The notes under the pieces: generated by a model
What the model was told of the DNA's origin: nothing
Database searches by the model: none
Seen by the model: only the letters and a program-made list of their open reading frames with translations
Position numbers and translations under genes: made by a program
In this document: positions 53,425 to 57,858 of the stretch, one piece after another
Position numbering within the stretch: the first letter of the stretch is position 1
Layout of the letters: the number at the start of each line of letters is the position of its first letter
DNA from: Pseudorhodoplanes sinuspersici
Lineage (GTDB): Bacteria > Pseudomonadota > Alphaproteobacteria > Rhizobiales > Xanthobacteraceae
Assembly: GCF_002119765.1 (NCBI RefSeq)
Contig: NZ_CP021112.1
Coordinates: 3,218,501-3,282,500 of the forward strand
Reading direction: 5' to 3'
Length of the DNA stretch: 64,000 nucleotides

Positions 53425-54258
53425 TTACGTGCCGCGCCGGCTGATCACAGGCTCAGTGGATGAGCGGTTGGCCGGCGGCGGCGGAGCCCGGTTTTCGAGC
53501 TGCTCGAATGCAGCCCTCGCAAATTCCTTGAGTCGCATCTTGTTGGCCGGGCCACTGACGACATAGCCGTAATCGCCGACCACCCAGCGGATCGCGGCGA
53601 CATTATCCGATTGATAATAACGAAATGACATTTGCTGGGCCGGCAGCTTGGTGCAATAGAAGGTAATCCGGTCTCCGTTGCCGTTCTCGTACATGAACAG
53701 GGCGGCCGGGCCGTTTTCTCCGGGCAGCAGACGGCCGCCAAGCAGCTTCATGTCGAAGGCCGAAAAGTCCGGGAGGCGCAGCGATGTGCCAAGACGGCGC
53801 GACAGCCATGGCGTCAGATGCGATTCGGTTGCGCCGACCTCCACGGGATGGCGGATTTCGCCGATATATAATTTGTGTGCGGCCAAGGCGTATTGCGCGA
53901 TCTGATCGGTCGGATCGCCAGGCGCCGCGGTGACCTCGGTCGTGTCGCGGGCCATCCAGCCGGCGACACCGCCGATCAGAAACGCAGCAGCGGCAATGGC
54001 CGCCGCGATAGCGCGCCAGTTGCGGCCCGAGCGCAGCAACGACTCGATTTTCAAATGCGACGGCACGGCTTCATGCGCGGTGCTGCCGAAGCGCGTCCGG
54101 ATCGCATCGGCCTGTACTTTCCAGGCGGCCACGCGCGCCGCGTCATCGGGATGCGATGCAAGCCATGCTTCGACTGCGGCATTGCGGTCGGCTGGCAATT
54201 CACCGTCAACGAAGGCGTGCAGTTCGTCTTCCGTCACGGGTGATTCACGATCGGTCAT
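53425..54258 (-). CDS. Membrane anti-sigma factor (ECF type)
   Basis: 277 residues. The N-terminal cytoplasmic domain (about 1-75) is like a putative zinc-finger anti-sigma, but no HxxxCxxC pair is visible, so it is the zinc-less form. One membrane segment is at about 83-101 (AIAAAIAAAAFLIGGVAGW). The periplasmic part (about 105-265) should sense envelope stress. It starts 16 bases after the sigma gene in the same direction, the classic sigma/anti-sigma order. Confidence 0.82.
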   Translation of the reverse strand: MTDRESPVTEDELHAFVDGELPADRNAAVEAWLASHPDDAARVAAWKVQADAIRTRFGSTAHEAVPSHLKIESLLRSGRNWRAIAAAIAAAAFLIGGVAGWMARDTTEVTAAPGDPTDQIAQYALAAHKLYIGEIRHPVEVGATESHLTPWLSRRLGTSLRLPDFSAFDMKLLGGRLLPGENGPAALFMYENGNGDRITFYCTKLPAQQMSFRYYQSDNVAAIRWVVGDYGYVVSGPANKMRLKEFARAAFEQLENRAPPPPANRSSTEPVISRRGT

Positions 54259-54274
54259 CGGTCACCTCTTACTT

Positions 54275-54766
54275 TCATTTCACGCGGCGCAGCACCGGGC
54301 GCTCGCCGTCGAGATAGGCTTTAATTTGCGCGCGCGCCCGTGCCAGCCGCGACATCACCGTGCCGATCGGTACCCCCTGAACCTCGGCGACTTCGCGATA
54401 GGACAGTCCCTCCAGCACCACCAGCAGCAGTGCCTGCTTTTGATCGTCAACCAGAAGATCGAGCGCCCGCTCGATGTCGCGGCCGCCGGCTTCGGGACCG
54501 GCAGAATCCGGTGCGTCATTATCTTCCAGCGTTGAGGTCGAGGGCCGGCGTGCCAGCGAACGCAGGCGATTGCGATTGAGATTGGTTAGGATGGTGAACA
54601 GCCATGACCGGATCTCCCCGCCGTGGAACAGATGTTCCGAGCGCAAGGCGCGGACCAGTGTGTCCTGCACGAGATCGTCCGCCAGTTCACCGTCACGCGT
54701 CAGCGCCCGCGCATAGCGCCGCAACGCTGGAACGTTGGTCTCCACATCCTGCCGAAAGCTGCTCAT
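54275..54766 (-). CDS. ECF RNA polymerase sigma factor
   Basis: 163 residues, normal ECF length. Region 2 (about 10-75) includes LVQDTLVRALR and EIRSWLFTILTNL; region 4 (about 110-155) has LVDDQKQALLLVVLEGLSYREVAEVQGVPIGTVMSRLARAR, the helix-turn-helix. It binds core RNA polymerase and is held by the downstream anti-sigma factor. I start at ATG 54766 (AGGGA about 8 bases before); the open frame extends upstream to 54835 but is not conserved. A perfect 7-base dyad lies in the leader. Confidence 0.88.
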   Translation of the reverse strand: MSSFRQDVETNVPALRRYARALTRDGELADDLVQDTLVRALRSEHLFHGGEIRSWLFTILTNLNRNRLRSLARRPSTSTLEDNDAPDSAGPEAGGRDIERALDLLVDDQKQALLLVVLEGLSYREVAEVQGVPIGTVMSRLARARAQIKAYLDGERPVLRRVK

Positions 54767-54797
54767 CAATCGGGTCCCTGGAAATCTGTATCTCGAA

Positions 54798-54816
54798 CCA
54801 CTATCCGGCATAGTGG
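54798..54816. promoter_or_regulatory. Dyad upstream of the ECF sigma gene
   Basis: CCACTAT (54798-54804) and ATAGTGG (54810-54816) with a 5-base spacer form a perfect inverted repeat 32 to 50 bases before the sigma start. Could be an operator or a 5' hairpin. Confidence 0.35.
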
Positions 54817-55013
54817 ATGTTCGGCCGCTGGGCAAAAACAGCTGTCGGCAGTTGTGGTGTCCATGCCCGGACTAACACCCGGGGCATATTCACTATTCCG
54901 AAATTGATAGCCGGAGCGATCGCCCACAGGCCGCCTGCGGGCCTGTTCTTGATGGTCCCGATACCCTGTGCCACAAGATGACCGCTCAAAAGCGCCTCAA
55001 AAAAGGAACATCA

Positions 55014-55832
55014 ATGCCGGACGCACCTGGCCTCATGCGCGGAAAACGCGGGCTGATCATGGGGGTCGCGAATAACCGTTCGATCGCCTGGGGTATCGCC
55101 AAGGCCTGCCACAATCATGGGGCGGACCTGGCCTTCACCTACCAGGGCGACGCGCTGAAAAAGCGGGTCGAGCCGCTGGCCGAGGAGGTCGACGGCATCG
55201 TGGTCGGCCATTGCGACGTGTCCGAACCGGCCACCATCGATGCGGCGTTTCAGGCGGTGGAAGCAGCCTGGGGTTCGCTCGATTTTGTGGTGCACGCCAT
55301 CGCCTTCTCCGACAAGGATCAACTCGACGGGCGTTATATCGATACGACCGAAGACAACTTCGTGAAGACGATGTTGATCTCCTGCTATTCGTTCACCGCG
55401 ATCGCTCAGCGGGCCGAGAAGCTGATGACGAATGGCGGATCGATGCTGACGCTGACCTATTACGGCGCCGAGAAATGGATGCCACATTACAATGTCATGG
55501 GTCTGGCGAAGGCTGCGCTCGAATCCTCGGTGCGTTATCTCGCCGCCGATCTCGGTCAAAAGAACATCCGCGTGAATGCGATCTCCGCCGGCCCGATCAA
55601 GACGCTGGCTGCGTCGGGGATCGGCGATTTCCGGTATATCCTGAAATGGAACGAATATAATACACCGCTGCGCCGCAATGTTTCGCTCGATGAGGTCGGC
55701 GATTCCGCCGCCTATTTCCTGTCGGATCTTTCGCGCGGCGTGACCGGAGAGATCCATCATGTCGATGCCGGTTACCATGTTGTCGGCATCAAGCATCCTG
55801 ATGCGCCGGATTTGACCGTCGGCGAACCCTGA
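55014..55832 (+). CDS. fabI: Enoyl-[acyl-carrier-protein] reductase (FabI)
   Basis: 272 residues. It catalyses the last reductive step of each fatty acid elongation cycle with NADH. Hallmarks: GVANNRSIAWGIA (cofactor), the Y-x6-K pair in YNVMGLAKAAL, and the loop AISAGPIKTLAASGI. The ATG at 55014 has AAGGA 6 bases before, and MPDAPGLMRGKRGLIMG is a normal beginning; the open frame from 54978 has no ribosome site. It ends 21 bases before a strong terminator. Confidence 0.93.
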   Translation: MPDAPGLMRGKRGLIMGVANNRSIAWGIAKACHNHGADLAFTYQGDALKKRVEPLAEEVDGIVVGHCDVSEPATIDAAFQAVEAAWGSLDFVVHAIAFSDKDQLDGRYIDTTEDNFVKTMLISCYSFTAIAQRAEKLMTNGGSMLTLTYYGAEKWMPHYNVMGLAKAALESSVRYLAADLGQKNIRVNAISAGPIKTLAASGIGDFRYILKWNEYNTPLRRNVSLDEVGDSAAYFLSDLSRGVTGEIHHVDAGYHVVGIKHPDAPDLTVGEP

Positions 55833-55853
55833 TCGGATTTTGACAGCTCTAAA

Positions 55854-55885
55854 AAAACGGCCGGACCTTGAGGTCCGGCCGTTTT
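55854..55885. terminator. Bidirectional terminator after fabI
   Basis: A 15-base inverted repeat (AAAACGGCCGGACCT with AGGTCCGGCCGTTTT) with almost no loop, flanked by A residues on one side and T residues on the other. It serves fabI and the convergent lysine-rich gene. Confidence 0.92.
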
Positions 55886-55906
55886 CGCGCCAGGCGCTTA
55901 ATTCAA

Positions 55907-56425
55907 TTAGGCGGCGATCCGGTATTCAATCACGTTTTCGGCCTTCTTCTTGGCCTTCTTCTTGGCTTTTTTCTTCGCAGCCGAGACGTCGGTGGCGACG
56001 GTCAGCTCAGCCTTCTTGGCCTTCTTCTTGGCTTTCTTCTTGGCAGCCGAGACGTCGGTAGCGACGGTCAGCTCAGCCTTCTTGGCCTTCTTCTTGGCTT
56101 TCTTCTTGGCAGCCGAGACGTCGGTAGCGACGGTCAGCTCAGCCTTCTTGGCCTTCTTCTTGGCTTTCTTCTTGGCAGCCGAGACGTCGGTGGCGACGGT
56201 CAGCTCAGCCTTCTTGGCCTTCTTCTTGGCTTTCTTCTTGGCAGCCGAGACGTCGGTGGCGACGGTCAGTTCAGCCTTCTTGGCCTTCTTCTTCGCTTTC
56301 TTCTTGGCGGCCGAGAAATCGGCGCTCTTCGCAACGCCTGGGGTTGCCTGAGCCGCGAGCACCGGCGACATCGTGGTCGTGCCGATGAAGCCGATCGCGG
56401 CAAGGACGGCGATCAATTTACGCAT
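55907..56425 (-). CDS. Secreted lysine-rich repeat protein
   Basis: 172 residues. A signal peptide (residues about 1-25: KLIAVLAAIGFIGT then SPVLAAQA) is followed by five exact-frame 22-residue repeats from residue 38 to 147 and a partial sixth. Each unit is a Lys/Ala helix (AAKKKAKKKAKKA) plus ELTVATDV. The protein is extremely basic, like histone H1 tails or polylysine, but is exported rather than nucleoid-bound. Function unknown; it could bind LPS, envelope polyanions or DNA outside the cell. The start at ATG 56425 is preferred because it opens the signal peptide; the longer frame to 56542 lacks one. Confidence 0.75.
   Translation of the reverse strand: MRKLIAVLAAIGFIGTTTMSPVLAAQATPGVAKSADFSAAKKKAKKKAKKAELTVATDVSAAKKKAKKKAKKAELTVATDVSAAKKKAKKKAKKAELTVATDVSAAKKKAKKKAKKAELTVATDVSAAKKKAKKKAKKAELTVATDVSAAKKKAKKKAKKKAENVIEYRIAA
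55946..56314 (-). repeat. 66-base tandem coding repeat, five units plus a partial
   Basis: Units begin at 56314, 56248, 56182, 56116 and 56050, with a partial from 55984. Each encodes one 22-residue repeat of the lysine-rich protein. The units are almost identical at DNA level, which indicates recent expansion or ongoing slippage. Confidence 0.9.
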
Positions 56426-56733
56426 GGGGTTTGTCCTCGTGAGTGGGTCGATAATTCCTGGCGAAAGTGTTCGGGTGCGATTGAGGTCCCGGAACGGGTC
56501 TTTCCCAGCCAATTCATTTGCAGATTTCATTTCCTCCGGCAAATGAAAAAATCAAAAAAACCCTTATTTTTCAAAAGCTTAACGAGCGTTCAGGTTCTCA
56601 TTAATTCGCGTTCAGCCCCATGAATGCGCATTCAGAGCAGACAAGAAAAATGCTGCACAGCAGTAATGAAATCGCCCGATTTGACCCTGCGGTTCACGCG
56701 GGCTACCAAGCCGCCTTACCCGAAAAAAGCATC
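56426..56733. other. Intergenic region, 308 bases
   Basis: Holds the divergent promoters for the lysine-rich protein gene and aroC. It contains A/T-rich stretches (56540-56580) but no gene or clear operator. Confidence 0.55.
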
Positions 56734-57858
56734 ATGTCGTTCAACACCTTCGGCCATCTGTTCCGCGTGACCTCGTTTGGCGAAAGCCACGGGCCCGCGC
56801 TTGGCTGTGTCGTCGACGGGTGCCCGCCGCGCATTCCACTCACGGCTGCAGAGATCCAGAACGATCTTGATAAACGCCGTCCTGGTCAGTCGCGATACAC
56901 GACTCAGCGCCAGGAGCCGGATGCGGTCCGCATTCTGTCTGGTGTGTTTACTGATGAAGCGACCGGTCAGGACATGACGACCGGTACGCCGATCGCGCTG
57001 CTCATCGAAAATGTCGACCAGCGCTCGAAGGATTATTCCGATATCAAGGACAAGTATCGTCCTGGACATGCCGGTTACACCTACGACGTCAAGTACGGCT
57101 TCTACGATTATCGCGGTGGCGGTCGTGCCTCGGCGCGCGAGACCGCGGCGCGTGTGGCGGCCGGTGCCATCGCGCGCAAGATCGTGCCGGGCGTGACAGT
57201 GCGCGGAGCGTTGGTGCGGATGGGACCGCATGCGGTCGACCGCTCGCGTTGGGACTGGGATGAGGTCTCGCGCAATCCTTTCTTCTGTCCTGACGCCAAG
57301 ATGGCGGAAATCTGGGCCGATTATCTCGATGGCGTCCGCAAGGCCGGCTCTTCGATCGGAGCGGTTGTCGAGATCGTGGCTGACGGTGTCCCGCCGGGCC
57401 TTGGCGCACCGGTCTATGGCAAACTCGATGCCGAGTTGGCGGCGGGCCTCATGAGCATCAATGCGGTGAAAGGCGTCGAAATCGGCGACGGCTTTGCGGC
57501 CGCGGATCTGTCCGGTGCGGACAATGCTGACGAGATGCGCATGGGCAACGATGGCAAGCCGCTGTTTCTGTCGAACCATGCGGGCGGCATCCTGGGTGGC
57601 ATCTCGACCGGTCAACCGGTGGTTGCGCGATTCGCCGTGAAGCCGACGTCCTCGATCCTGCAGCCCCGGAAGACGGTCGATCGCTACGGCCGCGACGCCG
57701 AGATCGTGACCAAAGGCCGCCACGACCCATGCGTAGGCATCAGAGGGGTCCCCGTCGGCGAGGCGATGGTGGCATGTGTCATCGCCGATCATTATCTCCG
57801 TCATCGCGGGCAGGTGGGTGAAGGGCCGTCATGGCCATTTCCCATGACCGACCGGTGA
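56734..57858 (+). CDS. aroC: Chorismate synthase
   Basis: 374 residues. It converts 5-enolpyruvylshikimate-3-phosphate to chorismate using reduced FMN. Signatures: [44 protein letters not shown], and [14 protein letters not shown] start at ATG 56734 ([10 protein letters not shown]), where homology begins; the frame extends upstream to 56620 with no conservation. Followed by ribB after a 41-base gap, probably in the same transcript. Confidence 0.94.

Follow-up and report, generated by a model that had tools for sequence, protein, structure and literature searches.

The stretch of DNA analysed here (the window) covers 64 kb of the single-contig, 5.97 Mb genome of Pseudorhodoplanes sinuspersici (G000:C1:3218501-3282500). 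Its minus strand carries a gene for a lysine-rich repeat protein of 172 aa, predicted to be exported, which runs from an ATG at 56425 to the stop at 55907 and has relatives at the equivalent locus of other genomes. The neighbours are a convergent fabI-like gene (54978-55832, plus strand) and a divergent aroC-like gene (56737-57858, plus strand), which we take from their sequences to encode enoyl-ACP reductase and chorismate synthase, respectively. Between the gene and fabI lies a terminator-like hairpin (55851-55885; -32.9 kcal/mol for the fold of 55838-55900) that could be used from both sides. What are presumably sigma-factor-like and anti-sigma-like genes (53425-54835) diverge from fabI, a position that is kept in several relatives.

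By inspection, residues 1-25 of the protein (codons 56351-56425, minus strand) resemble a signal peptide, with MRK, a hydrophobic core and V-L-A-A. From D36 on follow five 22-residue units of the form DxSAAKKKAKKKAKKAELTVAT, encoded by 66-bp direct repeats (55991-56320, minus strand) that are evident both from the translation and with Tandem Repeats Finder (5.6 copies, 97% match, score 693; the remaining 11 rows within the window score just 52-60). A sixth unit (55910-55990, minus strand) ends differently from the other five in ENVIEYRIAA (codons 55910-55939). The first-pass annotation had named a signal peptide followed by five nearly identical Lys/Ala units, and this is borne out with a sixth unit added. 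Its description of a strongly basic, repetitive, secreted protein holds for charge and repetition, and for secretion as far as a signal-peptide-like start at the ATG suggests it: the mature part contains 50 Lys, 1 Arg and 13 acidic residues, giving a net charge of +38 and a computed pI of 10.4. Scans of Pfam and NCBIfam place the protein in no family above cut-off. A single-sequence AlphaFold prediction (no alignment) returns one long helix (pLDDT 81, pTM 0.30), which says little because lysine-alanine sequences readily give helices. Antisense frames over the gene are hydrophobic mirror images and were not accepted as genes. One copy of the gene was found in the genome; a second frame ending in YRIAA encodes a longer, dissimilar protein and is not another copy.

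In an alignment of 17 loci, which span several genera, the N-terminus that by inspection is signal-peptide-like is conserved from the ATG at 56425 onward, and a Shine-Dalgarno-like AGGA (56434-56437, minus strand) precedes this ATG. A longer, cytoplasmic form starting at TTG 56542, which had been named earlier as the finding that would speak against export, is unlikely because homology begins at the ATG and the AGGA lies in front of it. This TTG also forms the first bases of a TTGC element resembling a -35 box and so should lie upstream of the transcript.

With the window protein as query, matches are obtained in 7 of 61 genomes, including one (G048) whose matches, at about 30% identity and some with stops, were judged to be low-complexity and not relatives. 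These are clustered frames at loci L007 and L010-L012. A composed consensus finds matches in 18 of the 391 host-family genomes, including a further low-complexity match that is not counted among the relatives (G030) and a degraded copy (G339); one genome (G214) was added by reading its locus, which brings the secreted form to 17 genomes, with one remnant besides. No relative was found in the viral contigs searched, nor in a scan of genome contigs with alignment, which used two Lys-rich peptide patterns only. The tail-type DNA pattern, tried over the genome contigs instead, gives 15 matches, seven of them in relatives (one a degraded copy) and eight in unrelated frames.

The relatives have in common an N-terminus of the type MRKLxAIxAALGFLxxTSLPxxA, and part of them share a tail V/E-I-x-Y-R-I-A-A. 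At 55 of 57 x-S-A sites in the 17 proteins, two of which are near-identical, the junction between units reads [DE]-[LFVIM]-S-A. The core sequence and the number of units vary freely: the comparison of repeat number proposed in the first-pass annotation yields 0 to 9 junction units among the 17 proteins, some of which are cut by contig ends or contain unread bases (many genomes are in tens to hundreds of contigs; the G344 gene is cut by a contig end and the G205 copy has unread bases). An aroC-like gene adjoins the repeat gene in 16 of the 17 genomes, and a fabI-like gene lies beyond it in 11, a count in which the contig ends first in three (G024, G302, G344), no fabI occurs within the stretch read in two (G036, G279), and neither gene is found within 8 kb in G082. 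As judged from sequence comparison, the 172-aa frame is a real gene, because the N-terminus, the [DE]-x-S-A junction and the position next to aroC are retained among its relatives while the units vary in number and sequence.

Four relatives (G279, G214, G283, G302) have cysteine-bearing units, and some members contain 2-6 Cys with a net charge of only +8 to +18. Proteins of lower charge with cysteine units, in part of the CKKNPKLKGC type, occur at the same locus in L146, L151, L164 and L143 and possibly represent a disulfide-loop variant. In the same four loci, promoter and gene are separated by an almost identical 5' leader, GGCGAAAGGCCGGACGACCGAGACCCCAAGCC, which could fold as RNA. The interval between fabI and aroC varies in content, and at L168 (G338) this gap holds a different small signal-peptide-like protein of 90 aa with four Cys in the mature part.

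Alignment of the DNA upstream of the 17 loci reveals boxes of the form TGAAYN4RTTMA at steps of about 22 bp, followed by CTACGGAAATAT, a T-run and TTGC. In the window, two such boxes with 22-bp spacing form a putative operator (56578-56614, minus strand), and a third, palindromic box, TGAATGCGCATTCA, is placed at 56621-56634 (minus strand) by the same alignment and by a consensus over 49 places, which contains three boxes. The double box occurs once in the genome, even allowing 2-3 mismatches. At a fixed distance behind the operator stands a -35-like TTGCCG (56537-56542, minus strand), and in 42 of 49 places a TTGY counterpart follows the operator at 34-36 nt. When up to 3 mismatches are allowed, a search by pattern finds 51 operator places in 49 of the 391 host-family genomes, leaving 342 with no such operator, and gives no control hits. 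In other families of the order, the operator is found in none of 286 genomes, a number that does not include 11 further genomes of the host family. A weaker operator, missed by the pattern, precedes the secreted form in three genomes (G255, G318, G064).

The element could have belonged to aroC, and 85 loci upstream of aroC were compared. At the 16 first scored as carrying the gene, which include the degraded G339 copy, the element is present with 0-2 mismatches; among the 69 scored as gene-free, it is present in 10 and absent (at least 3 mismatches) from 59, a few of which come from other families. The idea that the boxes serve aroC was dropped, since the element tracks the product and is absent from these 59 loci. 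From the sequences, we infer that the boxes act as an operator.

The first 10 extra loci hold tiny frames of the MAKKKSKKK type in five genomes (G011, G021, G009, G018, G016) and a large synthetase gene in three (G003, G002, G019); in G027 nothing recognisable lies behind the operator, and the G274 locus ends at a contig edge. Taken one by one, the 51 operator places precede the secreted repeat protein in 13 cases, a micro-ORF in 26 and a synthetase in 8, while of the remaining four two have no product (G017, G027), one lies at the contig edge (G274) and one has a Lys-rich frame without a start (G339:C145). Thus 47 of the 51 places carry one of three mutually unrelated product types. Operator places occur in 15 of 47 genera and a product in 13, the other two being the genera of G017 and G027. 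The product types are not strictly exclusive, as in two genomes (G174, G198) a micro-ORF at the operator coexists with a Pls/PosA gene at another site, and G339 combines an operator-linked synthetase with the degraded repeat gene at a second operator.

The 26 micro-ORF places comprise 30 micro-ORFs of 9-19 residues with a net charge of +6 to +10, and the peptides have no signal peptide. All 30 have a Shine-Dalgarno-like sequence (by a pattern made for this analysis), and their Lys codons are 227 AAG vs 14 AAA. G021 has two micro-ORF cassettes, each with its own operator, and in G016 (L181) poly-lysine micro-ORFs of 9 residues stand four in tandem, most of them within repeats of about 156 bp, with what by eye is a terminator-like hairpin after them. 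Poly-lysine micro-ORFs, defined as 8-25 aa with at least 48% Lys, are absent from both strands of the 59 operator-free aroC loci (176 kb) and from the 64-kb window. In the same 59 loci there is neither a synthetase match nor a frame of 55 residues or more whose part beyond residue 24 is at least 20% Lys.

The first-pass annotation had called the protein polylysine-like, a guess that finds an unexpected counterpart in the synthetases, which belong to the enzyme family of epsilon-polylysine and poly-ornithine synthesis. This family, Pls/PosA (TIGR02353; epsilon-poly-lysine and delta-poly-ornithine synthetases), is defined by adenylation and carrier domains and a terminal membrane domain of about 700 residues scoring above a curated cut-off, and makes short cationic chains. 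By sequence, the operator-linked synthetases are members: the G003 enzyme scores 710 bits against a cut-off of 423, and all eight operator-linked genomes have a match over the cut-off, which for G002, where the synthetase gene is cut by the contig end, lies on a contig other than that of the operator. A cationic isopeptide homopolymer is predicted as their product. The window gene, ribosomal and of 172 aa, is not a member, and the window genome has no TIGR02353 match at E 1e-50.

Solved-structure matches of the G003 adenylation domain include the epsilon-poly-L-lysine synthase 7wew (253 bits). All eight linked enzymes share the pocket D-F-E-A-L-G-S-V-T, with positions that we assume to correspond to those of PheA. 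In PosA, the D and E of the pocket are described as binding the diamino acid, and position 2 is given as Ala in lysine enzymes, Met in PosA and Phe in diaminopropionate or diaminobutyrate enzymes (PMC10522769). Phe at this position therefore predicts a diamino acid shorter than lysine, so that the polymer of the linked enzymes would be built from diaminobutyrate or diaminopropionate rather than lysine. Genes for a GNAT acetyltransferase and a phosphopantetheinyl transferase lie downstream in the four loci read that far, called by family scan in G034 and G086 and by similarity in G003 and G019. Six of the eight linked synthetases adjoin aroC, and in G003 and G019 aroC comes before the synthetase cassette and fabI beyond it; in G034 and G339:C77, the operator accompanies the synthetase with no aroC within the stretch read.

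Most Pls/PosA genes of the host family are not known to be linked to the operator. TIGR02353 is present in 31 family genomes, 8 of them operator-linked, and in 19 of the other 23 the stretches upstream contain no operator above shuffles (three of these, G174, G322 and G110, with less than 200 nt of upstream DNA); four genomes were left out of the comparison (G143, where the stretch lies beyond its contig, and G001, G310 and G336). These 19 stretches led us to drop the idea of an operator common to every Pls/PosA gene in the family.

The exchange of products extends into the genus of the window. The repeat protein lies beside aroC in G000, G005 and G007, a synthetase stands at the operator beside aroC in G002, G003 and G004 (with fabI beyond seen only in G003), and in G006 the site lacks both operator and gene. 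An AroC tree with 47 rows requires six or more changes among the three states, a number that is not firm because good support is limited to 9 of its 44 inner branches.

Building on the gene, its boxes, its place and its family of alternative products, all of which emerge from sequence comparison, we think it fairly probable that a conserved polycation locus under one switch can carry any of three interchangeable products, of which this gene is one. A DNA-binding protein would read two or three TGAAYN4RTTMA boxes and thereby switch on a short transcription unit whose product would always be a positively charged amino-acid chain. In the window genome, this product would be ribosomal, and the signal peptide would direct the Lys/Ala repeat protein (+38) into the periplasm or out of the cell, where it may bind anionic partners such as LPS and membrane phosphates, polysaccharide, DNA or the envelopes of competitors. 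In relatives, the same switch would drive translated poly-lysine peptides of 9-19 residues, and in others a Pls/PosA synthetase followed by the acetyltransferase and the phosphopantetheinyl transferase, the products presumably being functionally equivalent. As a guess, the [DE]-[LFVIM]-S-A junctions may be cut to release peptides of about 20 residues. The first-pass annotation, whose coordinates do not take in the operator, the conserved place next to aroC or the alternative products, proposed neutralisation of envelope or extracellular DNA charge, an antimicrobial function or adhesion, any of which may be the role of the protein.

With the linked synthetase, the output can be a chain of nonribosomal origin, an argument against roles of the RNA or its codons, and with the Lys-rich ribosomal forms this chain may also be a plain peptide. 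The length of PosA chains, given as 7-12 residues (PMC10522769), is close to that of the micro-ORFs and is counted in favour of the polycation reading. Counted against it are the majority of the family's Pls/PosA genes with no known link, the Phe of the pocket, the four of 51 places without a recognised product, the genomes that combine product types, the members with cysteines and lower charge, and the 342 family genomes in which the operator was not seen. The micro-ORFs have no signal peptide, so the products may end up in different compartments; polylysines this short might pass through membranes, act within the cell or be released by another route. For the broader claim, that one switch, which has a product in 13 genera within a single family, has repeatedly traded ribosomal for nonribosomal synthesis of the same functional polycation (repeat protein, 9-19-residue peptides or Pls/PosA homopolymer), our confidence is evenly balanced.

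Several other explanations can be considered. Repeat protein, micro-peptides and isopeptide polymer may be alternative cationic weapons secreted against competitors, a possibility that we regard as tentative and rather unlikely. Epsilon-polylysine and related polymers are antimicrobial, and a PosA 12-mer is reported to inhibit fungi but to be minimally active on two bacteria (PMC10522769). The changing units and patchy presence would fit a weapon, and the GNAT gene beside the synthetase could modify the polymer. However, the interval from fabI to aroC shows no apparent immunity or export gene at loci with the repeat protein or micro-ORFs, and the lack of a signal peptide in the micro-ORFs does not suit a secreted product.

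E. coli Asr is small, exported, Lys/Ala-rich and repetitive, and the window protein, which is like it in design only, may also work by charge. It is unlikely that the window protein is a periplasmic acid-shock-type protein working as Asr does, that is, as a charged exported chaperone protecting the outer membrane under stress. Asr has been described as a periplasmic, intrinsically disordered chaperone that contributes to outer-membrane integrity (PMC10746267). The gross design agrees (signal peptide, short length, Lys/Ala-rich repeats), as does the failure to find a fold family for the window protein. On the other hand, the comparison was made at the level of family scans, which found no Pfam or NCBIfam match above cut-off, and the AlphaFold model suggests, as weak evidence, a long helix rather than disorder. 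The window locus also differs in having signal-peptide-free micro-ORF and synthetase counterparts behind the same operator, which an Asr-like role leaves unexplained.

It is improbable that the micro-ORF transcripts act as RNA, either as a lysine-codon leader or as an AAG-rich regulatory RNA binding an RNA chaperone, with the repeat gene as an amplified by-product. The excess of AAG codons, the short units that are tandem in some genomes (four copies in G016) and the terminator-like hairpins in G016 and the window would suit such a role, but the AAG preference may be plain codon bias and every micro-ORF has its Shine-Dalgarno-like sequence. Moreover, 8 of the 51 places hold the synthetase instead, with no Lys-rich micro-ORF found there, and the secreted form is conserved at the protein level in its N-terminus and tail. 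Rfam gives no family at gathering score in seven related loci and four weak sub-threshold hits in the window stretch. Finally, coincidence at a variable site, with the boxes belonging to aroC or the site and the Lys-rich genes and synthetase arriving independently without shared function, would fit the variable fabI-aroC interval but is very improbable, given that the 59 aroC loci without the element hold none of the three products and that the element accompanies synthetases in G034 and G339:C77, where no aroC was found nearby.

With interchangeable polycations as the preferred reading, the locus can be compared with other known systems. Bacterial Lys/Ala-rich histone-like proteins also combine Lys/Ala repeats with high charge. 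The window protein is likewise Lys/Ala-repetitive and highly charged but differs by its signal-peptide-like start and by a non-basic tail that is conserved; binding to DNA in the cytoplasm would not be expected of this protein but could apply to the micro-peptides. A literature search on the promoter motif, Pls/PosA, cationic homopolymers and Lys-rich exported repeats or microproteins found no such locus in titles and abstract openings, within a scope that most subscription journals fall outside. As far as these searches go, the parts are of known kinds or near to them, and there is no description of one operator under which ribosomal and nonribosomal genes for polycations replace each other.

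Bacterial polycationic homopoly(amino acid)s have been described as being of unclear biological significance (PMC9606270). A single operator that stands before a synthetase in some genomes and before a ribosomal peptide in others makes this question directly accessible to genetics, as the ribosomal versions can be deleted, recoded or shortened, and the common operator leads to the signal. If this reading is true, poly-lysine microproteins of about a dozen residues, which fall below the size that annotation usually handles, would be an overlooked class of conserved genes.
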